This document shows positions 15,656 to 60,999 of a stretch of DNA of 64,000 nt, one piece after another. Position 1 is the first letter of the stretch. The number at the start of each line of letters is the position of its first letter. Position numbers and translations under genes: made by a program. Source of the stretch: Zygnema cylindricum (Eukaryota > Streptophyta > Zygnematophyceae > Zygnematales > Zygnemataceae); the NCBI GenBank assembly GCA_037447655.1, contig JBBHKE010002838.1, forward strand, positions 51,939 through 115,938. Direction: 5' to 3'. The notes beneath the pieces are model-generated. The model saw nothing but the letters and a program-made list of their open reading frames with translations. It searched no databases and had not been told where the DNA came from.

Positions 15656-16061
15656 TAGATTAAAGTCATGACAACGGAAAGTAGAGTGGAATTCAAAGTA
15701 AATAAAAACAAGACATTCATTTTATTTATTAGTTTTTTAGGTACACACAGAGTAAAGTACCAATGTAAACGTCTCGAGAGGCTCAAAGAGCCTTTGTGAC
15801 CTTAAGGAACCATTTAGTTATTTTATCGAAGGTAAAGACAAAAGACAATGGACGCAATCCAAAAACAAAGCATATCTCTCACACTAGTTGCTCAAAAAGC
15901 AGAATACCGTAGATGGTTTAAAACAATCTAAATTATAAAAATTTAAACACTTTGTGAAAGTGAAAAATGCACAAAATTCTAGATTTCGGTGTTTATTATA
16001 ATTATATATAGAGATATACTTTATCTTGTCGGATTAAGCTTCTAGTAGTGATAAAATTGCA
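15656..16061 (-). repeat. Degenerate LTR (5' LTR of - strand copia element)
   Basis: Partner of the repeat at 12350-12620. It is longer because of internal insertions. The outer end meets CT-rich DNA at 16062, continuing the tract broken at 12350. Confidence 0.7.
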
Positions 16062-17382
16062 ACACTCTCTCCCTCTCTCTCTCTCTTCCTCTCCTTCTCC
16101 CTGTCCCCTCTCCCCTCCTCCCCTTCTCCCCCTCTCTACCTCTCCTCATCTTTCCCTCTCCTTTTTTTCCAATTTTCGCCTCTCCCCCTCTCACCCTCTC
16201 CCCCTCCTCCCTTTCGCCCCGCTTCCCCTCTCCCTGGCTCCTTCATCTTCCCCTCTCTCTCTGTCCTTCTCTCCTTGACCCTCTCGTTGTGTCTCTTTTT
16301 CTCCTCTCCACCTTTCACCCTCTCCCCCTCTTTCCCTCTTCCCAAACCAATCATTTGGATTTTCCTTTCCTTCTCTCTCCTACTAACCACTCACCCTCTC
16401 TCCCGCAGCATGTTCATTATCTCCCTTGCTGTACGATTTTCTCAATTTTGACCTATCATCCCCTCTTTCCCTCCTATTTTTATTTTGCCTGGTTTTCTAC
16501 TAGACTCTCTTCCTCCCTCGGGCTCTCTTTTTTTCCTCTCTCCCACCCAACAGCTGTGGTTTCCCCTTTTTCTCGCGAGCCACACTTTCCCCCTAACTTC
16601 CTCAACATCTTTCTAATAGGTCCCCTCACTCCGCTACTCAGTCTTTTTTTTTCCCTCACGTGTGGGCCCCTTAATTTGTAGTAGAGGAAAAAAGGGAACA
16701 AAGAAGCATAAGAGTGATAGAGGGAGAGAATGAGAGAGAGGATCTCTTTAATCAAACATCAGGACATCTGACAAAAAAACATTTTATTTCGTTTGTATTT
16801 GTGGAAATTAATAAAAAATGAGTGCTTTTTTCGCTCTGAAAATAAGAACGCCAACATGATTTACAACCGTCATGTTTGCTTCCGTTTTTTTTTTGTGGTC
16901 TACCACCTCACGTCAATGAAAAATTTAACTGGTTTACGCACTATCCAATCTAAAATATATTTGTTTGGCCTCAAGCAAGGCAGACATAAAAAAAAGTTGT
17001 TTTTGTGCCACCGATATTCTGGACACTATTTTGGTCACATGCACTCTACTTATGTCGATGATGCCAGATACAAGGAGATGTTTGATATGTTAAATTAAGC
17101 ATGTAGTTGCACGCCTCAATTTATATCTCAATGGCTGGTAACAAATTCCATCAAAACATGTACTTCCAACTTACTCGTGGAATAAAAACTTGTCAAAATT
17201 CGTACAGAATCGACCATACTTCAATTGCTAACCTTTGGTGAATTTTGAATGTTATAATATTTTGGTGTTTTGTCAAACAACGTTATGTCATCAGGAAAAA
17301 TGGAAAGGCATTAATAAACATATCATGTGTGTCTTACCAACATATGTAGACAAACGTTTAATTGTACAGATTTTTGAAATTT

Positions 17383-17600
17383 TCAAGGAAAAAAAGGTCT
17401 AGTGTTAACTATACCGTGAATATTAATAGAGGAAAATTGTTTATTAGCGTGGGGTTTATCTACTGCCGTAAATCTGATTAAATCTAAAATGATATGGCTA
17501 ATTACATACCGTTTAGGTGGTGGAGGGGGTGGTGGGGGAGAGCGTCGTTGACGAGGAGGTGGTGGAGGACGTGGTGGAGGAGGATTTGGGGAAGGAGTCA
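17383..17600 (-). CDS. Proline-rich linker exon L10, possibly terminal exon
   Basis: After an AACAG acceptor the phase-1 frame gives VTPSPNPPPPRPPPPPRQ, then RSPPPPPPPPK. Unlike all the others, the copy does not end in AAAG/GTGTT. The two candidate donors (GTATGT after 17510, GTAATT after 17506) give phase 2 or phase 0. Reading on without splicing gives about 44 further codons and a TGA at 17383. It is either the last exon of the gene or a decayed copy. The unspliced tail (YVISHIILDLIRF...) has no known motif. Confidence 0.5.
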
Positions 17601-29600: not shown

Positions 29601-32600
29601 CAGGTTCTTATTAGTTACGAAATGCCAAGCATGATATGTTTGACACTTATGGCTCCCATGGCAGATAAGAGGCAATCAAACACCTTTGGGAGGCGGTGGG
29701 TAATTTTTTCTTTTAGGAGGCGGTGGGGGGCTTCTTTTCCTAGGTGGGGGAGGCGAACGGCGTGGATTAGTTCCTGTTCACGTTCCAATAGGGCAACATC
29801 ATTTTCCCAGCACGAGTGCCCCACCATGAGTATTTTCGATCATTTATAAAATAACTCATAATCATGAGATCTAAACTCCTATGCTAGTCTGCAATAATTT
29901 TTTCACATTTTCTTTCACTTTGTTGTGATGCAAGCAGAAAAATCGAGAATTAGTGATATTGCTTGCATTTGTTTTTGTGCTTGTTGTTGTTATTTGTTTG
30001 TTTGTTTTTTTATTTTTGGGTCAATTGTATACAGTCCAATGAGTCTATCGGTTCTGCCATACCCTGTTTTGATTCTTGATAAAATTATAATAGTACATGG
30101 TTCGTCTTATTGCAATCTAGTTCTAGTTTTGCATACCCAACACAATGGATAGATTGGGTGTATTATTATGATTGTCCTTATAAATCGTATTTTAATTGTG
30201 CTTATATTCATGTATATTCAAGCACAATAATACACAATATTTATTGTGTATTCTATTTTACAATGTTTTATCCATATCAAATTACCAATACGATAGTAAG
30301 TGTAGATTTTCTAACCATTATATCTTTTGTGAGATTGTGTACTGTTAAATAGCTTATTTCATGAATCATAATGTATGCATAAAATCCCATAGCAACGTGT
30401 AGAATGAAGACTTTTCATTTTTCCAAATTGCTGATATTTTTGAAGCACTAACCTCCAATCGAGATGTTGATTGAAAAAACGCCAAACGATGAATCAGAGT
30501 AGCCATCCACAATCTGAACAGGTTTTCCATTCACAAAAATATGTAAGAACTTTAGAAGAAAAAAGAAAAAAATCTACAAAAAGGATTATCGACAGTAGGA
30601 CGCGATGTTTGTAATGCTTTTGCCTTACTGGTTTTGGTGTTTTATTGATAAACAGTTGTAGCTATTAGCTTGCAAAGTCTTTTATCACGATGCCTAGACC
30701 ACAGCAAATGTCTTATCATCTGAAAGAGAGAGAGAGAGAGGAAGAATTAAATTCACTTTTTCCCGTGAATTGTGACATCTTGGTAACATGCCGTAAAATC
30801 GAGACTTTGCTCTGAAGTTCTCTGGCATACTAAAGTTCTACGAAATGAAGAAAAAAACCGAACAAATCCCTGCACTAATTATGCCAATCTCTTTTCACTA
30901 TTCAAAATTCTCATCATCCATTAGAAATAATAGCCGAAAAGATTAAGATTTTGTAAAATCCTACACAAAAAAAAGCTTTAACAATAACCGGGGATGCAAA
31001 ACCGAGAAGTAACAAACTCACGATTATGTATGTGTTATTTTGAAGAAGAAATATACCGTCCCAGAAAGATTGATCTCCACAACTCCGATCGTTGTCATCT
31101 ACTCTCCAAGTTGTATTCGGACCCACATTATAAACGTAGATTGTTGTATCAAAGGTAGAGTTGTCACAAGTTGACATGGTTACAACCTGAAGACGACATT
31201 CATTTCAAGAATTTCAAAATTGAGAGTGGTTTAGGAAGAAAAGCACAGAGGGAAAATGCTATAGATTGTTACCTCTAAATGCCCGTGTTCACATCCACAA
31301 TTCAGTTATTTTTAAGCCATAAATGAGTAACACTAGATAATTTGCAACTTCTTGGGAGATGTTAACACACTTTTTAAAAGAATATTGGTAGATGTGGCTT
31401 TTCCCATTAAACAAATATTTGAATCATCCAAATCAGGTCTATAATTAACTTATTAGAAATCTTACAGTGCAGACTTTTCAACATGAGTGGATGGTTTCAA
31501 ACTCTATAATTTTGAAAACGCCACGACAAAATGAGTTGGCATCACAAAAATAGAGTGGATTACAACAATTTAAAATATTATGCTCAAAAACTGACGAACA
31601 CTATATCCGTCAATCGTGTGCAATTGTGAAACAAAACTACAAAAATGTGGTTGTTATCACGCCTCGAGCCTAAGACCTAGAGGAACACGATAGCATTTTT
31701 TTCTCCACAAACTAATTTTTTTGGATGAAATTTTGTAGGAAGGCATGATCCCCAAATCGAGAAAGCTAGGCTTTTTCTGGGCATACCGTCACTGTATATG
31801 ATGGCTGTTTTGGTCGTAGAAATAACCAAATAAATTTAAAGTGATTTGTTTTTTTGACTGCGCGATATAAGATGCAAGGAAAACAAAGATAAAAATATTT
31901 GAACTTGACTTTGGAGAATGAAGTAATGTAATTCCTCTTTTCTTCTATTTATCTGTTTACTTACTTATCGGCATTGGGTTCTATATAACACTCTTGTTTA
32001 TAGTTGCAGTTTTAGTCCCTTTTGTTTAAGAAGTCACGACAGTTCTGCATATCTTCTCTTTGCCGTACGGTTTATATCTCAATTTGTTTGCTTGCTTTAA
32101 TATTTATGTTTGCACCATCAAAATTCTGCATACCCAGTACATATTTCTCAAAAAAAATTATCCGTAGGTGGTGAACTTAGCCCTTTAATTCCATGCAGTG
32201 GAAATTCTTCAAAAATCCAAAAACGGATCAATTCAGAGTTCAATTTTGAGGGATATTTTTTTACGGTTTTGGATCTTCTCATTTACTTTTGTTGATTATG
32301 CGTTGGATTCTATTCTATGCTCCTTATTTGTTTTCATTACTCCATTAAAAAGCAATGTTCATATTACTGCTTTTTACGATTCTAACGTTAATCATAAGAT
32401 ATACATGCATAACATGGTAAGACTTGTTACTGAGTGATATGACATTTAGAGAAATTTTACAAAATTACAAAAACGGCAACATTTGCCTTAAGCAAGTTGA
32501 TATAATCATGACATGTTCATTACAATTTTCTTACTTATGTGGTGTGAAAAAATTTCAGATACACTCTTTCATGGGCGGAATGCTCAGGTTATCTAGTGCA

Positions 32601-35600
32601 AATGGGTATTTTCTCCAAATAAAAGCGCACTTTTTTAAGCCCATTTTTCTCAACTAATGTCTTTATTTTACAAAAAGAAAAAAAATAAAAATAAAAAAAG
32701 TACTAGTCAATATGAGCAAATGCTTTTTTCGAGCCAGTCACCTTGTCTTTTGAAGCCATGACGACTTTAGGAAAATTCCATAATCAAAAAATGAGTAGAG
32801 CATTTCTATTTTCCCATTGTAAGATATTTTTTCTCGCTATTTAGTTTCAATTGTGACTCCTTTTAGCACCAAACAACTTCACTTGTACAAGCATCACGCT
32901 CCCTTTCAATTTTTTTTTCAAAAACGGGTGTACAATTGCTGAATGACAACCAAGTGTATCATCCTAATAATGTCATGCCAGTCCATCTTGAAAATTGTAT
33001 AACGGTAACGAAGATAAAAAGAGCAGATGCATGTGTGTCCGTTTACTTCCGAGTGACGAAATTAGTACCGCCCCCTTTGGTGAACTATTATTCCCTTTCA
33101 TTTGAATGCTTACATTCTCATTGGTAGGTTTCCAACTCACATGTAGCATAATAAATTAGAATATTTACAAAAAACCAAATCTTCTCTATTTCGCTTACAT
33201 TAGTGCTTTCTCCACTTGGTTTGAATAAATTTTTCCACTCCAACGACTTTTTCTAGTAGCAAGTAGAAGGAAAGAGGACTCTTAAGGTTTGGAGGCAGGC
33301 CCACCTGGTCGGTTGGTGACGTGTATTGGAACCCGACATCCGGACCGGGACTAGCTGTATGCATGTTTGTGGAGTTAGTAGTGTCACCCTCGTAGTTAAA
33401 AGGCAGCGATGAGATAATGATGGAGTTGTTGTATGTCCGCTCACATGGAGGTCCTTTGCAAACTGCAAAAGTTCAACAGCGATGTTTAGAAGGTGAATGG
33501 TTTAAATCAAATGCCCAATCTTGTATTTCACTAATCACTATTTGTAACCCATTTGTAACTTGTGCTGCATGAATGTCGAAGAACACACATTGAGAGGTAC
33601 AATTTTAGTATTTGTACTTAAAAGAGTTCAATATACTTAGACATAACAGAATCTCACATGGAAAATCAACGGGACAACAGTTATCCCCTGGACATTGGCA
33701 TCTGTTCAAAATTTCATTTTGCGCCGCCCAAGTAGCTAAGAGAGCGTAATTCTAGACCTGTTTGGATAAATTCGACTGCATTTTAACATTTAGTAGTTTT
33801 TATCCTCAAAAAATGAATTCTCGATAAACAATCCATATTTTGTAAGGTCAAAAAAATTCAAAACGATGCGATCACGATAAAACCCACTCATTTCGATTTT
33901 ATTTGATGAGTGGCATAAGAGCGCGAAGATACATTGTTTTTGTTGGATTGGCACGTGAAGCCGGTCCAATACGGGGTAGAATATGGAATATCCATACTCG
34001 AGCCGCCCGTAATAAATGGGTACGGACCCGCCAGTCTCTACATCGAGCTGGTGGCACAGTGGTAGTGCGTTCGCAGCTGAAGTGAAAGGTCCCAGGTTCG
34101 AACCCTGGCCGGCTCAATTTACCCAAGTGTGGGACATGCCGAATCCCGGATTTCTAGGAAATCTAACAGTTTTGCATTTTTGAAAATGCAGAATTTGATC
34201 TAGAAAACTGTTCCGCGTCCAGAGAGAGGAGTGGCATCTAAAAGGGAAAAGGAAAAGGGAGAACAAGAGAGCACAGGAGGGGTAAAGGGTTCCATCTGAC
34301 CACCCCTACCTCTTTTCATCTCCATCGCTTGCTAGCTTATGACTCACCCGCTGACATCTCTCCATCTCTTTTTATGCCCATTTTCCCCTAATTACACTCT
34401 TTTCCTTTATCCCTTTCCTCCTATTTTCTACTGCACTCTCTTCCTCTCACGCTAAAACCGTCTCCCCCCGTTCTCTTCTTGATAGTACCATTTCCTCTCA
34501 TTGTGCCACGGATTCTCAACTTGCCGATTTCCTCACCAAGCCACTCCCCCGCTCTAAACTCTCCCTCAATCTAAACCCTTTCGCTAGTTTGAAATGATGT
34601 TTAAACATAGGTTTTTTTCCTATGTTGTAGTGCGACCAGAAAAAATCGAGAATTATTGCTATTCCTTACATTTGTTTGCTACAAAAATAAAAATGTCGTG
34701 CGTTTTGTTTTTGCCAAGCAATAGACTCATGTATATGTCGTTTAAAAAACATTGGCTATAAAGGCTTGATGATATAGGCTAACCAATGGCCAAACATACT
34801 TCCCCACGGCAAAAATACTTCAACTTCTAGTTTTTGGGGTTTGTATTTTATTTATGCGCCTGTTATTGTTATTTTTTTTTTTCTTTTTTTCGGTCAATTG
34901 TCCTAAGTCCGTAGTGTTGATTCATGTAGTAGATAATTCATTGTAGTGCCATCTAGTTTTAGTTTTGCATACCCAACACACTAAATAGATTGAGAGCATT
35001 ATTATGATTGTGCTGATCGTTTGTTCTTTGATTGTGCTTGAACTCATTTGTGTTCATGCACAATAATACACAATAATTATTGTTTATTTTATTTTACAAT
35101 GTTTTATTCATTTTAAATTGCCAATACAGTATTTTCTGTGGAATTTAAAACAATTCTATTTTTTGCGGGATTGCAAAATATTGAATGGCTAAGTTCATAA
35201 ATCATATTGTATAAAAAATCCCACAAAAACACGTGTAGAATACAGACTTTTCGTTTTCCAAATTGTTGATATTTTTGAAGCACTAACCTCCAATCCAGAT
35301 TGAAAAAATGCCAAACGATGAATCAGAGTAGCCATCCACAATCTGAACAGGTTTTCCATTCACAACAACATATAAGAACTTCAGAAAGAAACAGAAAACC
35401 ATCTATAAGAAAGACTATCGAAATTTGTACACTGTGTTTGTAATGCTTTCACCTTGCTGATTTTGATGTTTTATTGATAAATAGCTCTAGCTTGCAAAGT
35501 CTTTATAACCATGCCTAGACCACAAAAAACGTCTTATCATTTGAAAAACAGAGAGAGGCAGAATTTAATTCACTTTTTCTCGTAACTTGTGACATTTTGA

Positions 35601-38600
35601 TAACATGCCGAGATTTCAAGACTTTGCTCTCAAGTACTCTGGCATACTAATTGAACATATTCCTCCACGGATTACAACAATTCGTTTTATTATTCAAAAT
35701 TCTCATCATCCATTAAAAAAACTGACTGAAAAGATTAAAAGATTTTGTAAAATTCTACACAAATAAAATCTCAACAACGATGGAGGATGTAAAACTGAAA
35801 AGGAACAAACTCACGATTATGTATGTGTTATTTTGAAGAAAGGAAACACTATTCAAGAAGGAACTACTTCCACAACTGTCATCGTTGTCATCTATTATCC
35901 AAGTTGAATCCGGCCCCACGTTATAAACGTAGTGTTGTGTCAAAGGTAGAGTCGTCACAAGTAGACATGGTTACAACCTGAAGACGACATTCAATTCAAG
36001 TCATTCAAGATGGAGAGTGGTTGAGAAAGAAAAGCACAGAGGGAAAATGCGATAGATTTTCAACTTAGAATGCCTGTGTTTGCATCCACATTATACTATT
36101 TCTTAGATGTAGATGCACAACACTACATAGCCCGCAAAACTTGGGAAATGTTCAAAAATTTAACAACCTTTTTAAAACAAAATTGTCTAGAAGTTGCTGC
36201 TCCCATTAAAAAAGTTGAATCATCCAAGTCATTCCTACAACTAACTACTTAGAAATCTTATAATGGAGACTTTTCAACATGAGTCGATGGTTTCAAACTC
36301 TATGTTCTTGGAATTGCCACGACAAAAACTATTGCGCATCACAAAAAACATGCAGGAAAACAGACAGGATTTTAACAATTTAAATAATATGCTCAAAATA
36401 TGACTAACACTAAATCCCTCAATCGAGTGCAATTGTTAAACAATGTTCATATTTACTGCTTCTTATCATTCTAGTGTTAATCAAGAGATTTCTATGCACA
36501 CAATAGTAATAACTGTTATTGGGTGATATGATATATAGAGAAGTTCACAAGGCTACAAAAAACGGCAACAATTGCCGTACGAATGAAGCTGATATTTTTA
36601 TGACTTGTTCGTTACAAGTTTCTTACTTATGTGATATGAAAAAGGATTATATACACTCTCTCATGGGTGGCCTAATGGGTATTTTCTCCAAATAAAAGTG
36701 CACTTTCTTAAGCCTTTTTCTCAAGTAATGCTTTTAATTTACAAAAAGCAAAAAAAGAATATATACTAGTCGATATGAAAAAATGTTGTTTTCAAGCAAA
36801 CCAGATTGTCTTTCGAAACCATGACAACATCAGGAAAATTCCATCATGAAAAGATGAGTAGAGCGTGCCTTTTCAGTTATTTTTTCCATTGTAAAAAACT
36901 ATTTTTTACTGTTTAGTATCAATTGTGACCCTCTTAAACACCAAACTATTTCACTTGTACAAGTACCACACTCACTTTCAAGATTTCTTCAAACATACGG
37001 TGTACAAAAGTTGAAAGATGACCAAGTGTCTCATCCTAAAAATGTTATGCCAGACCATCTTGACAATTGAGTAACGGTTACGAAGATAAAAATTGCAGAT
37101 GCATGTGTGCGTCTAGAGTTGGTTTGTTTGTCCACTGACAAAATTAGAACTGCCCCTTCGGTGAACAATATTCCCTTTCATTTAAATGCTTTCATTCTTT
37201 GAATGCTTACATTCTTATCGGTATGTTTCTTACTCACACGCAGCAAAATAAATTAGAATATTTACATAGAACCTTAGCTTCCCTTTTTCACTTACATTAG
37301 TAGTTTTTCCCCTTGAATTGCATAAATTTTCCCATTTTAACGACATTTTTAATAGCAAGTAGAAGGAAACAAGACTCTTAAGGTTTGGTGGCGGGCCCAC
37401 CTGGTCGGTTGGCGACCTGTACTGGAACCCGACATCCGGACCGGGACTAACTGTTTGCATGTTTGTGGAGTTAGTAGTGTCACCGTCGTAGTTAAAAGGC
37501 AGCGATGAGATAATCACGAGGTTGTTGTATGTCCGCTCACATGGAGGTCCTTTGCAAACTGCAAAAGTTTAACAGCGATGGTAAGTTGGTGAATGGTTTA
37601 AAACAAGTGCCCAAGCTTGTATTTCACTGATCACTATTTGTAACCGTTCTGTAACTTGTGCTGTATGAAAATCGAAGAACACACATTGAGAGGTACAATC
37701 TTAAGCTTTTGTATTTATAAGAGTAATTTGCTGACATACTTAGACAAAATCTCACATGGAAAATTACCACAACAACAATTATTCTTTGGGCATTGGTATC
37801 TGTTGGACATTCAATATCGCATCGTCCAAGTAGCAAAGCTAGAGTTAACACAGAACTTGTTTGGATAAATTCGACTATAATTCACATTTAGTCGTTTCAA
37901 TCCCCAAAATAATGAATTCTTCATAAACAATCCACACTCTGTAAGGTCAAATAATATTCCAAAACGATTCTATCACGATAAAAACTAATCATTTAAAATA
38001 AATTTTAAAATGACACTGAATATACCTGATTTCGCATTTTCGAAAATATAAAATTTGATCTAGAAAACGATTAGAACAACCCCGGCTTTTAAAAAAACCA
38101 AAATCTTATGCTTCCGATGAAGCTATATCATTTTGAAATCCAATAATTTCTTTTTTGCACTGGGTAATAAATCAGCCGGAAGTCAGAAACCAAGCATTAC
38201 CAAAAAATACAGTTATATTCCTCTTCCCATCAACGTTCCACGTTAAGAGAGAAAAGAGTGGCAGGTAAGAAGGAAAAGGAAAAGGGAGAACAAGACAGCA
38301 CAGGAGGAGTAAAGGGTTCCCTCTAACCACCCCTACCTCTCTCCATATACATCTCTTGCTTTATTACTCATGCGCTGACATCCCACCAGCTTTTTGTATG
38401 GCCATTTTTCTCTAATCACATTCTTTCCCTTTGTCCCCTTCCTCCCCTTTTCCGCTACAACCTCTTCCTCTCACGTTCAAACCTTCTCCACCCTCCTCTC
38501 CTCTCCCTCCTGGTTCACTCTCTTCCCCAAGCCCCTCTAACCCTCTTCCACTTGCGTGACGGCCCATTTCCCTCTCTTCAAGCTAGCCCCTACTCTCAGC

Positions 38601-41600: not shown

Positions 41601-44600
41601 TTGTTATTTGTTTGTTTTTCTTTCTTTTTTGGTTAACTGTATTTAAGTTCGTAGCGTCTACCAATTTTGAATACCCCTGTTTTGATACTTTATAAAATCA
41701 TTGTAGTACATAATTCGTCTTATCGTCATGTAGTTTAAATTATGCATACCCAACGAAATAAATAGATAGAGTGTATAATTATGATTGTACTTATCAATTG
41801 TATTTTTATTGTGCTTAAATTCATTTGTATTCTAGCACAATAATTCATACAATATTTATTTTGTATTCTATTTTACAATGTTTTATTCATATAAAGTTGT
41901 CAACACCATAGTAGCATTGGATTTTATAACCATTATATCCTTTGTGGGATTGCATAATGTTGAATAGCTTGTTTCATAAAACATAATGTATGTATAAAAT
42001 CCTATAGAAACACGTGTAGAATGAAGACTTTTCATTCTTCCAAATTGTTGATATCTTTGAAGCACTAACCTCCAATCCAAATCTTGATTGAAAAAACGCC
42101 AAACGATGAATCAGAGTAGCCATCCACAATCTGAACAGGTTTTCCATTCACAAAAATATGTAAGAACTTCAGAAGAAAAAAAAAACAATCTATAAGAAAG
42201 ATTTCTTAACATAAGACAATACGTTTGAATTGTTTCCGCCTTGCTAATTAAGATGTTTTAATATTAATTATTAGTAGCATTTAGCTTGCAAAGACTTTGT
42301 TCACCACGACTAGACCACAGAAAACGTTTTATGATCTGAAAAGAGAGAGACAAATAAATTCACTTTTTCCCGTAACTTGTGACCCTTTGGTAACATGCCG
42401 AGGAATCAAGACTTTGGTTTGAAATACTCTGTTATAAAGTTGTACAAAATGAAGAGAAAAATTGATCAAATTAGTCGACTATTTATGCCAATTTCTTTTC
42501 GTTGTTCAAAAATCTCATCATCCATTGGAAAACATGGCTGCAAAGATTATTTTTTTTTGTAAAATCCTACACAAAAAAAACTCGCCAATAATGGAGGATG
42601 CAAAACTGAAAAGTAACATACTCACAATTATGTATGTGTTATTTTGAAGAAGGGAAATACGGTTCAAGAAGGATTGATCTCCACAACTCTGATCGCTGTG
42701 TGCTATTTCCCAAGTTGAATTCGGCCCCATATTATAAACATAAAGTACTGTATCAAAGGTAGAGTTGTCGCAAGTAGACATGGTTACAACCTGAAGACAA
42801 CATCCAATTCAAAGCATTAGGAATGGAGAGTAGAAAAAAAGCACAGAGGGAAAATGCAATAGATTTTAACCCTCAATACCTGTGTTCACATCCATATTGT
42901 ATAACTTTTCGCTGTAGATGAGTAACCACTAGATAGCCCGCAAAATCTAAGGAAATGTTCAAAAATTTAACACCTTTACTAATACAAAATTGGCCAGATG
43001 TGGCAACTCCCATTAAACAAATATTAGAATCATCCAAATCATGCGTACAATAATTTATTAGAAATCTTCAATGCAGAATTTCCAACACGAGTCGATGGTT
43101 TCAAACTCTATATTTTTCGAAACGCTCCAACAAAAAGTGTTGCGACATCACAAAAACTATATAAATAAACAGAGGGGATTACAAAATTTTAAATAATATG
43201 CTCAAAAATGACTAACACTATATCCCTCAATCGCGTACAATTGTTAAACAAAATCACAGAAATTCAATTTTTATCAAGTCTGGAACCTAGGACGTAAAAG
43301 AAAACTATAGTGTTTTATTCTTGTCAAACTGATTTTTTGAGATGGATTTTTGTGCGAAGGCATGATCCCCAACACGAGACAGCCCGCAAAATCTTGGGAA
43401 ATTGTAACACCCTTATTAAAACAAAATTTGCTAGAAGTGGCTGCTCCCATTAAACAAACATTTGAATCATCCAAATTATGCCTACAAGAAATTATTCGAA
43501 ATCTTAGAATGCAGACTTTTCAACATAAGTCGATGGTTTCAAACTCTATTTTTTTGGAAACGCTACGAGAAAATGTGGTGCGGCATTACAAAAATTGATA
43601 GGAAAACAGACGGGCTTACATCAATTAAAATAATATGCACAAAAACTGACACTACATCTGTCAATCGCATGCAATTGTTAAACAAATGCACGTAAGTTTG
43701 ATTTTTATCACGTCAGGAACCTAAGACCAAGGGGAGCACGAAAGCATTTTATTCTCGCCAAACTGATTTTTTTGGATGGAATTTTGTGTGAAGGCATGAC
43801 CCCCAAATCGAGAAAGTTAGGCGTTTTTTGAGAGTATCAGCAAGGTATGCGATGGCTGTTTTGGTCGCAGAAACGGCCAAAAAGATTTCACTGACCTATT
43901 TTTTGGCTGTGCAGTATAAACTATATGGAAACCCAAGATTGAAATATTTGGACTTGACTTTGGAGACTGAAGTAACGTAATTCCTCTTTTATATTATTTT
44001 TGTATGTACTTCTAACCGGCATTGGGGTATATCTAAATCTCTTGGTTATGGTTGGATTTTTTTTTTAGTCCGTTTATATAAGAAGTCTTGGCAATCCTGC
44101 AACTTCTCTCAAACTTCTTGTCACACGGTTTATTTCTCGTGTGTTTCTTGTGTTAATATCTATGTTTGAACCGTCAACATTTTACAAACCCTGTAGATAT
44201 TCTCTAGAAAGACTTATCCGAAGCTGGTCAACCTAGCCCTTTTATTTCCATGCAATGTAACTTTTTGAAAAATCCAGAAATGGATCAACTTCAGAGTTCA
44301 ATTTAATGGGCGATTTTTTAACAATTTTGGATCTTTTCTTTTTCTTTTGTTTGATTAGACGTTAGATTATATTCTGTGCTCTCTATTTGTTTTCATTATT
44401 TCAGTAAAACCTAAATGTTCATATTTACTGTTTTCTACAATTCTAATGTTAATCTTGAGATTTCTTTGCACTCAATAGTAATAAAAACAGTAAAATAATA
44501 GTTTCTAATAATAGTTTCTTTTAATAGTTTCTTTGTTACTGGGTGATATGACATTTGGAGAAATTTCACAAGGCTACAAACAACCGCAACATTTGCCTTA

Positions 44601-47600
44601 AGCATAAAGTTGATATAATTCTGATATGTTCATTACAATTTTATTCATATATAGTGTGAAAAAGGATCAAACGTGCTCTATCATGGGTGGGATACTCGGG
44701 CTATCTAGTGCGAAAGGGTTTTTTCTCCAAATAAAAGCGAACGTTCCTAAGCCCATTTTTCTCCAGAAATGTCTTTATTTTACAAAAGGCAAGAAAAAAA
44801 ATAAAGCTAGTCGATATGAGCAAATGCTTTTTTCGAGCCAGCCATCTTGTCTTTTGAAGCCATGATAACATCAGGAAAACTTTATCATCAAAAAATGAGT
44901 AGAGCGTGCCTTTTAAGTTTTTTTTCCATTGTAAATGTTTTTTTTTCACTATTTAGTATAAATTGTGACCCTTTTAAACACCAAACTATTACACTTGTAC
45001 ACTTTCAGAATTTCTTCCAGGAAAGGGTGTAAAAAATTTGAATGACAACCAAGTGTATCATCCTGATAATGTCATGCCAGACCATCTCGACAATTTTGTA
45101 ATGGTCACGAAGACAAAAAGTGCAGATGCATCTGTGCGTCTAGAGTTGGTTTACTTCGCCCGAGACGAAATTATAACTGCTCCCCTTGGTGAACTATTAT
45201 TCCCTTTCATTTGAATGTTTAAATTCTTATTGGTATGTTTCCTACTCACACACAACAAGTAAATGATAATTTTAACACAAAACCAAATCTTCCTTTGTTC
45301 ACTTGCATTAGAGGCTATTCCACTTGGATTGCATACAATTTTCCATTCCAACGACTTTTCTAATAGCAAGTAGAAAGAAACTGGACTCTTAAGGTTTGGT
45401 GGCGGGCCCACCTGGTAGGCTGGTGACGTGTATTGGAACCCAACATCCGGACCGGGACTAGCTGTATGCATGTTTGTAGAGTTAGTAGTGTCACCCTCGT
45501 AGTTGAAAGGCAGCGATGAGATAATTACGGGGTTGTTGTATGTCCGCTCACATGGAGGTCCATTGCAAACTGTAAAAGTTCAACAGCGATGGTTAGAAGG
45601 TTGATGGTTTGGATCAATTGCCCAAGCTTGTTTTTCTCTGATCACTGTTTCTAACCGTTTTGTAACTTGTGCTGCATGAAAGTCAAAGAACAATTGAGAG
45701 GTACAATCTTGAGCTTTTGTATTTATAAGAGTCTGATAAATGTAACTTGCTGACATGCTTAGACAAAATAGCACATGAAAAAATCAACGAAACAACAATC
45801 ATTTCTTGGGCATTGGCATCTGTTCGACATTTGATATGGTAGCGCTCAAGTAGCCAAACGAGTGTTAACACCTGACCTGTTTGGATAAATTCGACTAAAA
45901 TGTCAAATAGTTGTTTCAATCCTCAAAAAATGTTTTTTTCATATACAATCCGAATTCTGTGAGATCAAAAAAGATTTCAAAACGATTCTACCATGATAAA
46001 AACCAGTCGTTTGGATTTTATTTGATGAGTGACATGAGACCGTCAATATACTTGGTTTCGCATTTTTTTAAATGTAAGATTTGATCTAGAAAACGGTTGA
46101 AAACCCCGAACTTGTTTAAAAAGCAGTCAAAACTCTCATTAGAAGATCAAAATGTTATGCTTCCAATGAAACATTATCATTATGAAATCCTATATTTTTT
46201 CTTTTGCATTGGGAAATAAAAGAGCAGGAAATCACAAACCCAGTATTACCAGAAAAAATAGTTATAGTCCTCTTCCCATCAGCGTTCCTCATCGAGAGAG
46301 AGAGAGAGGAGTGGCAGATAAAAGGGAAAAAGATCTTCAAAAGTTATATTATCAATCATGTCTTCTACTCCTCCCAAGTTGGTCTCCTTTCCCAATTTGT
46401 TGACCCTTTAGCTTTAGAACTTGGACTACGGGTCCCTTGACATGGTTTCACTCACTAATGACAATAACACGAATTGATTTACCTTAGCCGTTAAACTAAA
46501 ATAGAGTGATGTAGACATGTCGCCACCTTTCCAGTCATAGGACTACCTATCCGGTCTCTCTCTTTCCTTCTCTCTATTAGCCCCACAAACAATAGCTACA
46601 TCTTGCATTTTCATCATTGTTTCCAAAGAATTATAGTAAACCTAACTTAGGTTCCTAACTAACCTAAATTTGTTTAGAACTTCTAATTTTCCACGTACCC
46701 TCGTCATTGATCAAACAGTAAAAACCCACCCGATCGAAATTTGTCTTACATGCACAACTAGGTTTGACTAATTTATCCTTAGCCATCTGTACCAATTCCT
46801 TGTCCAAATTTAACCTCTCTTAATCTTCAAACTTCTCTTGCACTAATTTTTCAAAATCCAGGTTGCTTGCATAAAACTTCCATAATGAACTTCAAGTCCT
46901 CTTAAAACTCAGCATCCTTGGACTCCACGACTAGCATCTTCTTTAAGTCACTGCACGTTACAAATTTCCATTCATACCGTACCCGACAAAGGTTTTTGTC
47001 TAACTTTTAGAGCTGAGCTTTCTTGCCCTCTCAATCCACTCCACATTAACTGCAAGACATCCCCAATTCCGTATGTGTTGGACAGACGCCACTCGTCCAC
47101 TCCATAACGCCTCACTCACCCACTCGATAACGCCTCAGGTGTCTTTCTCTTTAATATTGAAATCAGCCTCCGGCTTCATACATAGCTGGCAACGAAAGTT
47201 GCATCACATCATAAGATGATACCGTGCTTAGTACTATGGATCGTAGCCATGACCATCTGTTGTAGGGTTATGTTCATGTTTTCAGCAATTCTGTTAGACT
47301 GAAGTGAAAAAAGGGTAGTTAACAGCTACCTTATCCCCCAGGCATCCCCTTTTTCTTCCAAATCCTTAAATGATATGACCCCTCCATTGTCAAAACAAAC
47401 TTTTCAATTTCCTTTGAGACTGTCTCTATGGCATCACTACCCATTCCTTAAATCAGTCAGTTTCAAAATTCTTCATTAATAGATACACCCACGACTTAAA
47501 AAAGTAACTGTCTACAATCTCGGATGTCTACAATCTCGGATATATGTTGGCTGTCTCTCAAACACTTTGGTTTCCCACTTCCACAAATATCAATTTAACA

Positions 47601-50600: not shown

Positions 50601-53600
50601 TATGACGTATAATATGTCAAAACATACACGTACTTTAAAACCTCAATTTATATCTCACTGGCAGCTAACAAAAAGTGAGGGATCAAAAAAAGTACGTCCA
50701 TCCGTACATGTGGAATAAAAAATATACAAAAACCTTATAAGCGTCAACCATTCGTGAAATTATGAATGTTTCAAACTTTTGACCTTTTATTTAACAACGG
50801 TATATCACCAGAAAAAAATGGAAGGACATGGAAACACATGCCATGTGTGTCTTACCAGCAAGTTAGACAAACAATTACTGAATAGACACCTAATCGTGTC
50901 TTACCAACAAGTTAGCGCAAACAATTATTGTACAGATTTCTAGTTTTGTCAGAGAAGAAAGGTATACCGTTAGCCACACCATGAATAGCTATTAGAGAAA
51001 AGAAATCATTGGCGTAGGGTTTTCTTGAAGGGCATCGATCTGATTCAGTTTAAGACAATTTGGCTAAGTTTATACCGTTTAAAGAATTGACCCTAAGAAA
51101 CCACAACCAGTTTTATTTACACTATTTTGTGCTCGTAGGGAAAAATAAACAAGCACCAAATCAGTGGTCTTAGCGCGAGTAATGATTCATGATCAGTCAA
51201 AAACAAATTATCTTGTCAAAGCATATCCTTGAGTAGTTTCTAAAAAGCAGACTCAAAAGTCTTAGAGCTCAAACCAGGGCTTGGTTCACATTTTCCCAAC
51301 AATCTTTTGAAGGTAACAGGATCAATAAGAGCCCTACTGCAAAAAGAAAAACTGAATACGAGATGTGGCCTCATAACCGAGATGCACTTCAGGTTTTTAT
51401 GAGTTACGAGTTAGTAGGCATGATATGTTTGTCAAAGATAGTTCTCATGGAAATTAAGAGGCAATCACACACCTGGAGGAGGTGGTGGAGGAGGGGTTCG
51501 CGGAGACGGAGGGGGTAGCGGAGACGGTGGCGGAGACGGAGGGGCTGGCGGAGACGGAGGGGGTGACGGAGCTCCTGTTCACGTCCCCATAAAGCAATAT
51601 CATTTTCCCACACCGGAGTGGCCAAGCGTGAGTGTTTTCGATCATTTGCAAAATAGCTCAGAGTTATGAGATCTAAACTCCTATGATGGTCTGAAAGGAT
51701 TCTTTGACATAAGTTTTTTTCTTATGTTGTAGTGCGTCCAGAAAATATGGAGAATTAGTGTTATTCTTTGCATTTGTTTCCTACAGAAATAAAAATGTCG
51801 TAAGTTTATTAAAACGTTTATTGGCACGCACTAGACTCATGTATTGTCGTTTAAACAACATTGGTTATAAAGGCTTGATAACATGCTTCCCCGCGGCAAA
51901 AATACTTCAACTTCTAGTTTTTGGGGTATGTTTTTTTGTTTTTGTGCTTGCTGTTGTTGATGTTTATTTGTTTGTTAAATCATCTTCTACAATATAGTAT
52001 TAGTTTGCACACCCAACACAATAAGAAGATTGAGTGTATTATTATGATTGTACTTATCAATTGTATTTTAATTGTGCTTAAATCCATCCGTATTCAAGCA
52101 CAATAGCTCACAATAATTCACTATAATTATTTTGTATTCTATTTTACAATGTTTTATCCTTCTTGAATTGCCAATACAATAGTAACTGTATATTTTATAA
52201 TCATCATTTATTTAGAATAGCTGATTCAGTAGATCATATTGTGTGTATAAAATCCCATTGAAAAACGTGTCGAATGAAAACGTTTCTTTTTTCAAATTGT
52301 TGGTATTTTTGAAGCACTAACCTCCAATCCAGATCTTGATTGAAAAAAGGCCAAACGATGAATCAAGGTAGCCATCCACAATCTGAACAGGTTTTTCATT
52401 CACAAAATGTACAAAGTTCAGAATAAAACATAGAATAATCTATAAGAAAGATTATTGACAAGTAGGACACTAAGTTTGTATTGCTTTCGAAATCATAATT
52501 TTGATGTTATAGTGATAATTAGGAGTAGCTATTAGCTTGCAACGTCTTTTATCACTACGCCTAGACCACAAAAAACGTCTTATCATCTGAAAGAGTGAGA
52601 GAGGCAGAAATAAATTCACTTTTCCCTGTAACTTGTGATATTTCGGTAACATGCCGAAAAACAAAGACTTTGCTCTGAAGTACTCTAAGTTGTACAAATT
52701 GAAGAGAAAGAATTGAACAAATTCCTTCAATATATATGTCCATTTTTTTTCATTCTCCAAAATTCTTATCATACATTGGAAAAATGGTTGAAAAGATTTG
52801 AAGATATTTAAAATTTTACACAAAAAATCCTTCAACAAAAACCGAGGATGAAAAACTAAAAAAAAACAAACTCACGATTAGGTATGTGTTATTCTGAAGT
52901 AGGGAAATACGGTCCAAGAAGGAACTACGTCCACAACTGTCATCGTTGTATGTTATTCTCCAAGTTGAATTCAACCCCACATTGTAAACGTAGAGTGTTG
53001 TATCAAAGGTAGAGTTGTCACAAGTAGACATGGTTACAACCTGAAGACGACATTCAATTCAAGACATTCAGGATGGAGGGTGATTGAGGAAGAAAAGCAC
53101 AAAGGAAAATGCTTTAGATTTTAACTCTAAATGCCTGTGGTTTGATCCACATTATATATTTTCTTCGCCTGAATAGCCCGCGATATCTAGGAAAATGTTT
53201 AGAGATTTAACACATTTTTTAGAACAAAATTGGCCAGATGTGGCGGCTGCCATTACACAAATATTTGAAACACCAAACCTCGCCTACAATAATTTATTAA
53301 AAATCTAACAATGCTTCCTTTATTTTGACATGAGTCGATGTTTTGCGAAATGGCATTTGAAACACCAAACCTTGCCTACAATAATTTATTAAAAATCTAA
53401 CAATGCTTCCTTTATTTTGACATGAGTCGATGTTTTGCGAAATGGCATCCGTTGCTCGAGACCCCTCCACAGCCCCCGTACGTCAAAATAGTCCGTACAG
53501 TCTGGGTACGAACAATGTTTTTTTTTCTTGTTTATTCCGCGTTTTGTAAAGATGTTTTAAAATTTTACAACACCTTCAAACATATTATCCTATTCGTGGT

Positions 53601-56600: not shown

Positions 56601-58746
56601 TTTGCATCCGTTGTTATTTGTGTCTGCCGTCTTTTTACCGTTCCATGATAATCAGTTTATCAGTAAAATTCCGTACGTTCCCGTAAAATTTATGTTCAGT
56701 TAACCACCTAAAAAGTACTACAAAGTGCAACGCATATTTTTTGTCAAATTCCGTACATTTCCCGTAAAAAACCGTACATTTCTCGTAAATTTACCGTTCA
56801 GTTTACCGGACAAAAAGCACTCCGGACAGAAAGTACAGAAAGTACAAATATATCGGGACCGCTGACCGTTCGATAACCGATAACTATCGGTATCGGTGTT
56901 ATCGCGATAATTTTTTTACCGATACACAACACTAAATAAAACAATTAGTGTTATTAACTATATTTTTTGTTTAAAGGCCTAACGACAACAAAAGTTCAAC
57001 GTTCATTTACACATCTAACATTAATTTGGATACACATTCCCATAATGTAGTGGCCATAGCCTGTGTTCACATAGTCGGAATTTGAAAATATGAGGCCGGG
57101 TTTGCGCGATTTTCCCTTTACTTTATTTCAAGAAATCGAATTTGAGTACGTTTTCACATGTCGACATTTCTAATGCCGACGTTGTTATTTGACACTTTTT
57201 TTGCTTTTGTACAAAATGACAAGCATTTTTAGTGCACAACAACACATATTCTACGTCACATTATTTAAATACCTTTTAAATTTGAGTAGGTGACACTTAT
57301 TTAATCGCACCTGTATTACTGAAAACGAAAATAAATGCATGCTTTTTTCGAGCCAGTCACATTGTCTTTTGATGCCATGACGGCATCAGAAAATTTCCAT
57401 CATCAAAAAATGAGTAGAGCGTGTCTTCTAAGTTTTTTCTTCATTAGAGGATATTTTTTTCACTATTTAGTATCAATTGTGACCCTTTCAGACATCAAAC
57501 TGTTTCACTTGTACTAGTATCATGCTCCCCAAAAAAAATCCTTCCAGCGTAGGGTGTACAAAAGCCGTATGAAAACCAAGTGTATCCTCCTAATAATGTC
57601 ATGCTCGCCAATCTTGACAGTTGTGTAACCGTTACAAAGATAAATGAGCAAATGCTTGTGTGCGTCCTAGAGTTGGAATACTTTTGCAGTGACGAAATTA
57701 TATACTCCCTTGGGTGAACTATTATCATTCCCTTTCTTTTTGAATGCTTACATTCTTATTGGTAGGTTTCCTTCTCACAAGCAGCAAAATAAATTATAAT
57801 ATTAACACAGAACCAAATCTTCCATCTTTTGCTTACATTACTGGTTTTTTCACTTGGATGGCATACATTTTTCCTCTCCAATGACTTTTTCGAATAGCAA
57901 GTAGAAGGAAAGAGGACTCTTAAGGTTTGGAGGCAGGCCCACCAGGTCGGCTGGTGACGTGTATTGGAACCCAACATCCGGACCGGGACTAGCTGTATGC
58001 ATGTTTGTGGAGTTAGTAGTGTCACCCTCGTAGTTAAAAGGCAGCGATGAGATAATTATGGAGTTGTTGTATGTCCGCTCACATGGAGGTCCCTTGCAAA
58101 CTGCCAAAGTTCGACACTGATGGTTAGAAGGCGGATGGTTAACATCAAATTCTCGAGCTTGTATTTCAACGTCTAGTGTTAACTTCGCTGCCAATAAATT
58201 TTGAAGAAAAAAACTTATTGTGTGGGGTTTAAATAAGTGCCATAAATCCGATTCAATTTAAAAGAATGTCGATATTTTTGTATCGTTTAGCTAGTAGACG
58301 ATGAGAACAAAAAGGGGTTAATACCACTAATGTGTGCTCATAATCACAAGGAAAAGAAAACAGGCTTCCTTTCAAAGGTAATTAATGCTACAAACAGTTC
58401 ACGACCAGTCAAAAACGAAAACAAATTATCTTATCGCAGAATATTTTAGACTAGATTATAAACAAACAAATTTGAACGTCTTTGAGCAAAAACAAGTGGC
58501 TGGGCTCATGTGTTCCCAACAACCTTTTGAAGGTAAGAGAATCATAAGAACCCTACTGCGAAAACAAAATAAATAAATACGATGACATGGCCACATAACA
58601 AACTGCACTTATGTTTTTATGAGTTACAAGATGGTATGCATGATATGTTTGACAAGTATGGTTTCCATGGCAGATAAGGGGCGATTAAACACCTTGAGGA
58701 GGTGATGGAGGAGATCTTGAAGTCGGCGAAGGGCGTGGCGTAGCTC
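17383..58746 (-). CDS. Large modular extracellular-type protein: PPC-like domains on proline-rich linkers (partial)
   Basis: Deduced exons in sense order: 58746-58693, 58100-57943, 53040-52876, 52382-52322, 51574-51473, 45569-45412, 42790-42626, 42130-42070, 41222-41169, 37558-37401, 35977-35815, 35342-35288, 33462-33305, 31186-31022, 30513-30453, 29773-29684, 27157-27092, 24654-24589, 21138-21082, 19035-18979 and 17600-about 17510 or to a stop at 17383. Borders are AG/GT and phases match (linker 1-1; domain 1-0, 0-0, 0-1). Each domain has two Cys pairs, GDTT, PGPDVGF, FDT.LYVYN, SCG and IVDGY. This order is known from pre-peptidase C-terminal beta-sandwich domains appended to secreted bacterial proteins. 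Linkers resemble the SPPP stalks of green-algal wall and matrix glycoproteins. No start, signal peptide or membrane segment is visible, so the 5' end lies beyond 58.75 kb. One domain is frameshifted, so the locus may be partly or wholly a pseudogene. A wall or matrix role is inference. Confidence 0.72.
18979..19035 (-). CDS. Proline-rich linker exon L9
   Basis: 57 nt between AACAG and GTGTTCG, phase 1-1. Frame reads LRESPPPPKGKKFPPPPK. Short, lysine-bearing type like L5-L8, lacking the SPPP pattern of L1-L3. Confidence 0.65.
21082..21138 (-). CDS. Proline-rich linker exon L8
   Basis: 57 nt between AACAG and GTGTTTG, phase 1-1. Frame reads SRQSPPPPKGKTSSPPPK. Confidence 0.65.
21940..23620. 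repeat. Doubled CT-rich block in L array
   Basis: Two consecutive CT-rich blocks (21.94-22.68 and 22.80-23.62 kb) are separated only by a short CTTCCCATCGATGTTACGCG segment, with no linker exon between. This explains the 3.5-kb linker spacing here and looks like a partial unit duplication. Confidence 0.7.
24589..24654 (-). CDS. Proline-rich linker exon L7
   Basis: 66 nt between AACAG and GTGTTTG, phase 1-1. Frame reads STPRRPPPPPAKKINSPPPP then K. Confidence 0.65.
27092..27157 (-). CDS. Proline-rich linker exon L6
   Basis: 66 nt, phase 1-1. Frame reads STPRRPPPQPAKRKISPPPP then K. It is nearly the same as L7, so these two modules are recent duplicates. Confidence 0.67.
29009..29150. repeat. 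71-bp local tandem duplication in an L module
   Basis: GTACAATATTTT..CTCAAACCAAGTA..GTCTTACCAAC.. occurs at 29009-29079 and 29080-29150. Other L modules have a single copy. Differences between the copies show it is not brand new. Confidence 0.85.
29684..29773 (-). CDS. Proline-rich linker exon L5
   Basis: 90 nt between AACAG and GTGTTTG, phase 1-1. Frame reads TNPRRSPPPPRKRSPPPPPK, then RKNYPPPPK. Basic residues alternate with proline runs. It follows the P4 domain directly. Confidence 0.68.
30229..30252. repeat. Perfect 11-bp-arm hairpin
   Basis: AATACACAATA and its exact reverse complement are separated by TT, just downstream (in gene sense) of the P4 domain exons. The equivalent position near 35.06, 41.83 and 52.1 kb has the same sequence, but with imperfect arms. 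Confidence 0.75.
30453..33462 (-). CDS. P4: fourth PPC-like domain module (three exons), intact
   Basis: Exon 1, 33462-33305 (158 nt, phase 1-0), carries VCKGPPCERTYNN, SSLPFNYEGDTTNSTN and PGPDVGFQYTSPTDQ. Exon 2, 31186-31022 (165 nt, phase 0-0), carries VVTMSTCDNSTFDTTIYVYN, WRVDDNDRSCGDQSFWDG and LLQNNTYII. Exon 3, 30513-30453 (61 nt, phase 0-1), carries IVDGYSDSSFGVFSINISIG. The joined domain is about 127 residues with four cysteines likely forming two pairs, and several N-x-S/T sequons (NNS, NST, NTT, NNT). Borders are GCAG/TTTGC, CTTCAG/GTTG and TTCAG/ATTG, with donors GTGGGC, GTGAGT and GTTAGT. It is the best-preserved copy, and its acidic DDND-SCG loop could bind calcium, which is speculation. 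Confidence 0.78.
33940..34170 (+). mobile_element. tRNA-derived SINE-like insertion
   Basis: The insert interrupts sequence that is continuous at the paralogous positions near 38.03 and 46.05 kb (GATACATTG..TTTTGCATTTTT versus ATATACTTGG-TTTCGCATTTTT), so empty sites exist. It contains perfect pol III box A (TGGCACAGTGG) and box B (GGTTCGAACCC). The 3' part is non-tRNA. Exact ends and target duplication are not certain. Confidence 0.7.
34045..34115 (+). ncRNA. tRNA-like cloverleaf with pol III A and B boxes
   Basis: 71 nt fold as a tRNA. The acceptor is GAGCTGG/CCGGCTC, the D stem GCAC/GTGC, the anticodon stem TTCGC/GTGAA, and the T arm CCAGG-TTCGAAC-CCTGG. The anticodon loop AGCTGAA lacks the near-universal U33 and no CCA is encoded. 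I therefore read it as the head of a SINE rather than a functional tRNA gene. Confidence 0.6.
34470..34597 (+). pseudogene. copia RNase H C-terminal fragment
   Basis: The + strand frame reads CATDSQLADFLTKPLPRSKL then NLNPFASLK and a TGA at 34595-34597. TDSQLADFLTKPLP is the diagnostic C-terminus of copia polyproteins. The rest of the element is absent. The fragment lies just where the linker exon between P3 and P4 would be expected, joined directly to the L-module flank at about 34.60 kb. Confidence 0.85.
35288..37558 (-). CDS. P3: third PPC-like domain module, exon 2 frameshifted
   Basis: Exon 1, 37558-37401 (158 nt), is intact: VCKGPPCERTYNN, GDTTNSTNMQTVSPGPDVGF. Exon 2, 35977-35815, is 163 nt instead of 165. 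Two bases are missing after the codons for FDTT (CGTAGTGTTG where the other copies have CGTAGAGTGTTG on the + strand). The frame then meets a stop within a few codons. The remaining sequence YVYNVGPDSTW..DDNDDSCG is still readable in the shifted frame. Exon 3, 35342-35288, is 55 nt, an in-frame 6-nt deletion relative to 61 nt: IVDGYSDSSFGIFSIWIG. All splice borders are kept. Either this module is dead, or exon skipping or a sequencing error explains the shift. Confidence 0.72.
38300..39210. repeat. CT-rich block of a diverged L module
   Basis: Pyrimidine-rich on the + strand (purine-rich in the sense of the - strand gene). It has the same left flank (TATTCCTCTTCCCATCAACGTT) and right flank (GAGAGAGTGAGA..TTTGACA) as the blocks in 16-29 kb. 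The long + strand open frame here is a composition artefact. Confidence 0.8.
39795..40410 (-). pseudogene. copia RT fragment with internal deletion
   Basis: The - strand reads RKKTNWVFKIKTDSLGEA, then after frame breaks KARPVCKAFQEKKGVDSTEN and YAPVVKLG. It then jumps straight to FDCLMYLIFRTRPNIAALF, a block that in copia RT/RNase H normally lies well over 100 residues later. The catalytic YVDD region is deleted. The insert interrupts L-module sequence that is continuous at about 50.7 kb and similar at 17.2 kb. Its right part (40.0-40.4 kb) resembles 46.35-46.7 kb. Confidence 0.83.
41169..41222 (-). CDS. Proline-rich linker exon L3
   Basis: 54 nt between GAACAG and GTGTTTT, phase 1-1. Frame reads APPPPPSPPPSPSPPPP then G, a classical SPPP stalk sequence. 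The hydroxyproline glycosylation expected for such motifs is inference. Confidence 0.72.
42070..45569 (-). CDS. P2: second PPC-like domain module (three exons), intact
   Basis: Exon 1, 45569-45412 (158 nt), carries VCNGPPCERTYNN, SSLPFNYEGDTTNSTN and PGPDVGFQYTSPAYQ. Exon 2, 42790-42626 (165 nt), carries VVTMSTCDNSTFDTVLYVYN, STWEIAHSDQSCGDQSFLNR and LLQNNTYII. Exon 3, 42130-42070 (61 nt), carries IVDGYSDSSFGVFSIKIWIG. Phases are 1-0, 0-0 and 0-1, as in P1 and P4. No stop or frameshift is seen. The large intron shares long diverged stretches with P3 and P4, for example TTCGAGCCAGCCATCTTGTC at about 44.83 kb and CAAGTGTATCATCCTGATAA at about 45.05 kb, so whole modules with introns were duplicated. 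Confidence 0.77.
46330..49480 (-). pseudogene. Heavily decayed copia polyprotein remnant
   Basis: On the - strand the remnant begins just after an LTR-like end with a gag-like start (MGGGKKKRNTPSPLG, then IPKLKDSLPTNPF and FLVKLRISSKNG). Further on there is an integrase-like piece (KFVLTMEGSYHLR, then NRIAENMNITLQQMVMATIH, about 47.2-47.5 kb), which recalls SDNGGEF..NG.AER.NRTL. Stops and frame changes are dense. The 46.35-46.7 kb end matches the copia fragment at 40.0-40.4 kb. It lies between two halves of a CT-rich L-module block (46.3 and 49.9 kb). Confidence 0.62.
49450..49935 (-). repeat. LTR-like segment with adjacent candidate PBS
   Basis: On the - strand the segment ends GGTGTGTTACA near 49486 and is followed within a few bases by TTTGGTATCTGGTAGG. 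The TGGTATC core matches the initiator-Met primer-binding site used by copia elements. The outer end is placed only by where L-module CT-rich sequence resumes. No second LTR was found. Confidence 0.5.
51473..51574 (-). CDS. Proline-rich linker exon L2
   Basis: 102 nt, the longest linker, between GAACAG and GTGTGTG, phase 1-1. Frame reads APSPPPSPPAPPSPPPSPLP, then PPSPRTPPPPPPPG. The two other frames (SVTPSVSASPSV.., LRHPLRLRQPLR..) are also open but do not fit the flanking exon phases. Confidence 0.73.
52322..58100 (-). CDS. P1: first visible PPC-like domain module (three exons), intact
   Basis: Exon 1, 58100-57943 (158 nt), carries VCKGPPCERTYNN, SSLPFNYEGDTTNSTN and PGPDVGFQYTSPADL. Exon 2, 53040-52876 (165 nt), carries VVTMSTCDNSTFDTTLYVYN, NSTWRITYNDDSCGRSSFLD and LLQNNTYLI. 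Exon 3, 52382-52322 (61 nt), carries IVDGYLDSSFGLFSIKIWIG. Phases and borders are as in P2 and P4, although the exon 1 donor context is CTG/GTGGGC instead of CAG/GTGGGC. The first intron is about 4.9 kb, much longer than in the other modules, because of a block of about 3.9 kb at 53.45-57.33 kb that is not homologous to the other modules. Confidence 0.77.
53263..53448. repeat. 92-bp near-identical tandem duplication
   Basis: The unit beginning ATTTGAAACACCAAACC and ending TTTTGCGAAATGGCAT is present twice, head to tail, with one obvious difference (CTCGCC versus CTTGCC). Other P modules have one diverged copy. It abuts the left edge of the non-homologous block. Confidence 0.93.
56048..56934. 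mobile_element. hAT-type non-autonomous DNA transposon (MITE) with TSD
   Basis: 887 bp bounded by a perfect 19-bp terminal inverted repeat, TAGTGTTGTGTATCGGTAA at 56048-56066 and its complement at 56916-56934. It is flanked by the 8-bp direct duplication AATAAAAC (56040-56047 and 56935-56942). The 8-bp target duplication and TA/CA-GTG-type ends fit the hAT superfamily. The interior has dense CGATA/TATCG subterminal repeats and is GC-richer in the middle. No transposase frame is present. Confidence 0.93.
56151..56187. repeat. Near-perfect hairpin inside the MITE
   Basis: Arms of 14 perfectly paired bases (56155-56168 and 56170-56183) surround one central base. They extend to 56151-56187 with a single mismatch. 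Built from GCCGATAAGTAGCCGATA and its complement. Confidence 0.92.
58693..58746 (-). CDS. Proline-rich linker exon L1
   Basis: 54 nt between GAACAG and GTGTTTA, phase 1-1. Frame reads ATPRPSPTSRSPPSPPQ, less proline-rich than L2-L3. It is the most upstream exon identified. Since every other S/P-type linker follows a domain, another P module probably lies upstream of 59 kb or outside the window. Confidence 0.65.
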
Positions 58747-60992: not shown

Positions 60993-60999
60993 GCTTAAA

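Follow-up and report, generated by a model that had tools for sequence, protein, structure and literature searches.

The 64,000-nucleotide window analysed here (C2127:51939-115938, contig JBBHKE010002838.1) belongs to the 352.8-Mb, 2689-contig genome assembly of Zygnema cylindricum and holds repeated domain exons and proline-rich exons on one strand, raising the question of whether these pieces form a single working gene and, if so, what its product does. We consider it likely, judging from the DNA itself, that the exons make up one nuclear streptophyte gene, about 50 kb long, whose product is a secreted glycoprotein of modular build that serves as an adhesive cross-linker of the wall or mucilage.

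The first-pass annotation had described four copies of a three-exon domain on one strand, and all four could be located at base level. They lie on the minus strand, each exon bounded by an AG acceptor and a GT donor (Table 1). Exons A (phase 1-0), B (phase 0-0) and C (phase 0-1) measure 158, 165 and 61 nt, a constancy claimed for three copies that holds in copies 1, 2 and 4, each of which yields a joined domain of 128 residues. Copy 3 has a frameshifted exon B of 163 nt and an exon C of 55 nt. Phases were said to match across nearly every junction; this stands, including a direct joining of C3 to A4, which the exon phases permit, but B3 shifts the frame. Omitting either exon B3 by itself or all three exons of copy 3 would keep the frame. 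A linker exon was looked for between copies 3 and 4 and none was seen. Introns of the gene extend to 6.2 kb, and those of copies 1, 2 and 4 are 73-82% identical, compared with 94-97% for exon A, 82-84% for exon B and 92-95% for exon C (from difference counts). The intron between copies 3 and 4 also carries, on the opposite strand and where the expected linker is missing, a tRNA-Gln(CTG) match (34045-34116, plus strand; Rfam, 53.6 bits). A repeat that is pyrimidine-rich on the plus strand recurs in introns at 16.0-16.7k, 19.9-20.5k, 22-23.6k, 25.6-26.3k, 28.0-28.8k and 38.2-39.3k, and was partly spread along with duplicated blocks.

Table 1. Features of the proposed modular gene on the window scale, from 5' to 3' on the minus strand; positions above 64,000 lie beyond the window.
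Feature	Position	Strand	Remarks
Signal-peptide-like exon	64966-65026 (C2127:116904-116964)	-	Met and hydrophobic run, conserved block
Linker L1 (GATPRPSPTSRSPPSPPQ)	58693..58746	-	phase 1-1, 54 nt
Domain 1 exon A	57943..58100	-	158 nt, phase 1-0; CAG/GT donor codon common to 20/20 paralogous A exons
Domain 1 exon B	52876..53040	-	165 nt, phase 0-0
Domain 1 exon C	52322..52382	-	61 nt, phase 0-1
Linker L2, SPPP-rich	51473..51574	-	102 nt
Domain 2 exon A	45412..45569	-	
Domain 2 exon B	42626..42790	-	
Domain 2 exon C	42070..42130	-	
Linker L3	41169..41222	-	54 nt
Domain 3 exon A	37401..37558	-	
Domain 3 exon B	35815..35977	-	163 nt, frameshifted
Domain 3 exon C	35288..35342	-	55 nt, open alone when read in the C-exon frame of the other copies
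Domain 4 exon A	33305..33462	-	
Domain 4 exon B	31022..31186	-	
Domain 4 exon C	30453..30513	-	
Linker L4, basic Pro-rich	29684..29773	-	90 nt
Linker L5	27092..27157	-	66 nt
Linker L6	24589..24654	-	66 nt
Linker L7	21082..21138	-	57 nt
Linker L8	18979..19035	-	57 nt
Linker L9	17510..17600	-	91 nt if spliced at GTATGT; if not, open as far as TGA at 17383
3' segment	9428..11457	-	68-75% identical to one of the C412 sister genes at its 3' end

Ten linker exons had been counted; nine were found, and scans of the window showed no tenth. They are Pro-rich, as expected of the SPPP-type stalks proposed at first, and a long basic Pro-rich run comes after the last domain. Eight of the nine have lengths divisible by three (54-102 nt) and phase 1-1, in keeping with the rule stated for all of them, but the ninth, at 91 nt, does not. 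The same exons admit another reading, in which they are parts of longer exons in a second frame (...GHSCWENDVALLGREQ...LPKVFDCLLSAMGTISVKHIM) and no Pro-rich stalks exist. That frame is open through exon and flanks in six of eight linkers; however, it contains stops in two copies, and substitutions in the flanks ignore codon position (173/164/192 upstream and 93/91/73 downstream for positions 1/2/3, counted in seven of eight linkers with one excluded for a nearby deletion). Pairwise indels in the nine-linker alignment are multiples of three in 49 of 57 cases within the exon block; the corresponding figures are 90 of 312 for the upstream flank and 51 of 322 for the downstream one. For eight of the linkers the exon block took in 33 columns of intron, because the ninth was aligned longer. 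Furthermore, it is the Pro frame whose phase agrees with that of the domain exons and the signal-peptide-like first exon, and Pro-rich linkers of the same type occur in C412, a second contig of the genome. The three pairs of equal-length linkers display no third-position excess, their differences falling 10/10/8 by codon position. We therefore rejected the second frame, which we regard as very improbable, on account of its stops and of flanks that lack a codon pattern, and we retain the Pro-rich reading. As an open frame free of codon signal, it can be followed for example at 27026-27331 on the minus strand (...GHSCWENDVALLGREQ...FDCLLSAMGTISVKHIM) and was probably inherited through duplication.

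The limits first assigned to the gene, 58746 and 17383, both needed revision or qualification. Comparison of the window's flanks with C412 revealed an upstream block 85% identical over 117 bp, with four adjoining blocks at 66-74%. The block contains an exon of 61 nt that encodes a start Met together with a stretch of hydrophobic residues (MMVGWLLLLLTLPALTSKIV) and ends in phase 1 at G/GTATGT, as the linkers do. C412 has this exon twice, one ahead of each of two tandem sister genes. The signal peptide was judged by eye, from the Met, the hydrophobic run and the conservation of this first exon in three genes. Given the exon's position, the start of the gene probably lies beyond the window by about 1 kb rather than at 58746, and the first exon fits the secreted product proposed earlier. 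A copia-type retroelement on the minus strand (59792-63359; RVT_2 and gag-pre-integrase matches), whose two related ends of about 0.4 kb (59792-60171 and 62969-63359) are 82% alike, appears to sit inside the first intron.

At the other end, the boundary at 17383 is one of two readings of L9, which either runs to the TGA there or ends at its GTATGT donor. The window's 3' segment resembles the terminal part of one C412 gene (125.6-128.0 kb), which in turn matches that of the second (181.1-183.3 kb), and in both C412 genes this segment opens with a Pro-rich stretch after TTTGCAG. The window homologue lacks the AG of the sister genes' terminal exon, so the window gene may end at the TGA or at an exon still to be found. 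Additional copia-type coding remains lie at about 12600-15300 on the minus strand, with RVT_2 at 13546-13896 and a weak gag match upstream. A Pfam search of three minus-strand frames over 58747-64000 and 14000-17509 gave retroelement models and no other domain.

The proposal of one large modular gene built by duplication is borne out by paralogous loci in the same genome that share the module. A search with domain 1 found 73 exon-level matches (E<=1), some containing stops, spread over 15 contigs, of which 14 had a match at E<=0.001; six of the 15 contigs were read in part. C412 holds 11 further A exons and 11 B exons, with linkers of the window type. All 20 paralogous A exons examined, among them diverged ones, have the CAG/GT donor at one and the same codon; at C2046:8894 the match continues a few residues beyond it. 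Diverged PPC-like module copies, 35-60% identical and two to four per locus, were seen at C1255:125833-137630, C1002:32457-35807 and C2046:4192-8894, with Pro-rich stretches near those on C1002 and C2046 and none found near those on C1255.

The three sister genes contain four, five and six domains. In a tree of exons A and B, the C412 copies pair by position (2.5/3.6, 2.4/3.5, 2.2/3.3 and 2.3/3.4, support 0.80-0.98; a fifth pair, 2.1/3.2, has support of 0.03), and the window copies form one group with support of 0.95. In a tree built from exon B only, the window copies do not group together, suggesting that the exons may not all have one history. Lesions affect three of 15 copies: window B3, a stop in exon C of g3.2, and g3.3, which has no GT at the expected B donor. 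Among the C exons, that of g2.4 was not resolved and that of g3.6 not found. Both the cassette and the linkers begin and end in phase 1, and the middle exon is phase 0-0; the reading frame can therefore survive the gain, loss or skipping of copies. We propose that this tolerance accounts for the differing copy numbers and the survival of a frameshifted copy; an array of this kind would be easily lengthened and would bear broken copies. Sister genes with four, five and six copies make domain gain, loss and decay directly traceable.

Comparison of 14 of the 15 near copies, with window copy 3 (frameshifted) and exon C excluded, shows by its substitution pattern that the domain exons are under purifying selection. 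Over 91 copy pairs of exons A and B, codon positions 1/2/3 differ 1076/829/1634 times, and dN/dS is 0.35 within genes (28 pairs; dN 0.090, dS 0.257) and 0.42 between genes (63 pairs; dN 0.104, dS 0.249). These values bear on whether the locus is a pseudogene, a decaying array of duplicated fragments with no full-length product. Several marks of decay fit that account, namely the frameshift in copy 3, the lack of a linker separating copy 3 from copy 4, the missing acceptor in the homologue of the last exon, retroelement remains flanking the locus on either side, the very long introns, and a dN/dS from the three window pairs alone that is not clearly low by either method (NG86 0.44-0.69; YN00 0.69-1.03). 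However, purifying selection extends across 14 copies in three genes, the signal-peptide-like exon and the phases are conserved, three of the four window domains are open, and the frame survives omission of B3 or copy 3, all of which makes a pseudogene improbable.

The nature of the domain was approached through its relatives. Spliced domains 1, 2 and 4 reached no Pfam cut-off and matched neither PF04151 at E<=1, the comparison that had been put forward for the joined domain, nor PF23759 (GBD_T9SS_assoc) directly. An exon-by-exon PF04151 search across the genome gave no match and is of limited reach because the exons split the domain. Direct sequence search of the PDB returned five matches at E 1.4-1.9, which are not credible, and the three window domains alone found no relative at E<=1e-3 in collections of genome contigs and of viral contigs and nothing below E 0.6 in plasmids and phages. 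In contrast to the silence of PF04151, sequence homology to bacterial members of the PPC/CBD-type beta-sandwich was found. A set of 80 domains (79 from bacterial loci, one from a viral contig) was collected with a consensus composed after the window had been read, and the HMM built from this set scores domains 1, 2 and 4 at 77.9, 75.0 and 67.9 bits, with 9.5 bits for the best of 900 shuffles. Alignment of the window domain with the bacterial relatives by hhalign spanned 109 columns, with 37% identity, 99.2% probability and an E value of 7.2e-20. By their record titles these relatives are mostly Planctomycetes, plus Myxococcota, Bacteroidota and cyanobacteria; PF04151 is matched by 6 of 55. The fold was modelled on a bacterial homologue rather than on the spliced window domain (pLDDT 92.3), and the top solved matches of that model are the collagen-binding domains of ColH and ColG and a PPC domain. 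A PPC-like beta-sandwich, as the first-pass annotation had suggested, is thus supported for the window domain by bacterial homology and a modelled homologue, but not by the PF04151 model itself.

Four cysteines and two aspartates are invariant in 14 of 14 copies, and each A+B unit has two to five N-glycosylation sequons. Among 5.8 billion proteins, 13 candidates of about 99-315 aa and 36 of about 328-1043 aa included no near relative at E<=0.001 and E<=0.1, respectively, in a search that needed shared exact words, says little about distant relatives and did not take longer proteins as candidates. The absence is more telling for near relatives, because Klebsormidium, Ceratodon and a relative with a helicase 68-96% identical, over successive stretches, to that of the window are in the set, which also has a record whose name resembles Spirogloea.

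The window's helicase gene helps to place the host. A spliced gene resembling plastid DEAD-box helicase 58 occupies about 556-3531 on the plus strand of the window, and its best relatives include a EukProt transcriptome protein, followed by Ceratodon and Klebsormidium. Additionally, exons of GRAS transcription factors gave 27 matches on 12 contigs of the genome. Within green plants, GRAS proteins mark Zygnematophyceae and land plants. Both lines of sequence evidence place the host among streptophytes.

From these parts we would expect a product that runs from a signal peptide, through PPC-like domains with a collagen-binding-domain fold on short SPPP linkers, to a longer basic Pro-rich stalk. 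Hydroxylation and O-glycosylation would turn the Pro-rich parts into stiff rods like those of extensins and other hydroxyproline-rich glycoproteins (HRGPs), while the domains would be N-glycosylated and bind a matrix polymer or one another. With stalks spacing the binding domains, one molecule could hold several polymers, and the basic run may hold acidic pectin. Stiff stalks combined with multivalent binding domains would thus make an adhesive cross-linker in wall or mucilage. The same parts could instead form a secreted receptor, mating or adhesion molecule. Copy number differs among the sister genes, and repeated adhesion-like domains on HRGP stalks are also compatible with sexual agglutinins or mucilage adhesins; against this, the basic Pro-rich tail would suit a wall-anchored stalk. 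Nothing here is decisive, and we regard the receptor or mating role as rather unlikely beside a structural wall protein.

If the structural reading is right, the wall or matrix of a streptophyte contains proteins in which a bacterial-type binding domain recurs along Pro-rich stalks. The chimeric extensins of green algae, a poorly known group, would gain a new globular partner, the gene would be a test case for gene transfer with subsequent exon shuffling, and the question of how charophyte walls and mucilage become cross-linked would gain a clear target. We tentatively suggest a wider possibility, which we hold with less than even confidence: a streptophyte lineage captured a bacterial CBD-type adhesion module, which acquired introns of symmetric phase and became joined to hydroxyproline-rich stalks. 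The outcome would be a family of giant cross-linkers of the wall, frame-tolerant and expanding or contracting through duplication of whole cassettes, and with it an extracellular-matrix toolkit apart from volvocine pherophorins and land-plant extensins.

Several known systems share some of these features. The fold of the modelled bacterial homologue resembles that of the PPC/collagen-binding domains (PF04151) of the clostridial collagenases ColG and ColH; in contrast, the window domains fall below the PF04151 model, no peptidase was seen, and the gene is of the plant lineage, with two introns splitting the domain. PF23759 is matched by 39 of the 55 bacterial relatives that align to the window domain, but by none of the window domains directly. 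Volvocine pherophorins are matrix proteins in which globular domains are joined through Pro-rich spacers, a likeness in plan; however, the host here is a streptophyte, and we rejected pherophorin membership since domains 1, 2 and 4 have no PF12499 match (a genome-wide PF12499 search was also empty, as it was for a control sequence). No paper pairing a PPC-like domain with Pro-rich stalks was found in a literature search whose coverage leaves out most subscription journals. The closest likeness in architecture is to the chimeric extensins and other HRGPs of green algae, with which the window gene shares a modular build, Pro-rich SPPP-type repeats and, as judged by eye, an N-terminal signal peptide. 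According to one review, green algae have long chimeric extensins that are absent from land plants (PMC10762512). By its predicted architecture the window gene belongs with these proteins, whereas its globular partner, a bacterial-type PPC-like domain repeated four to six times, sets it apart.
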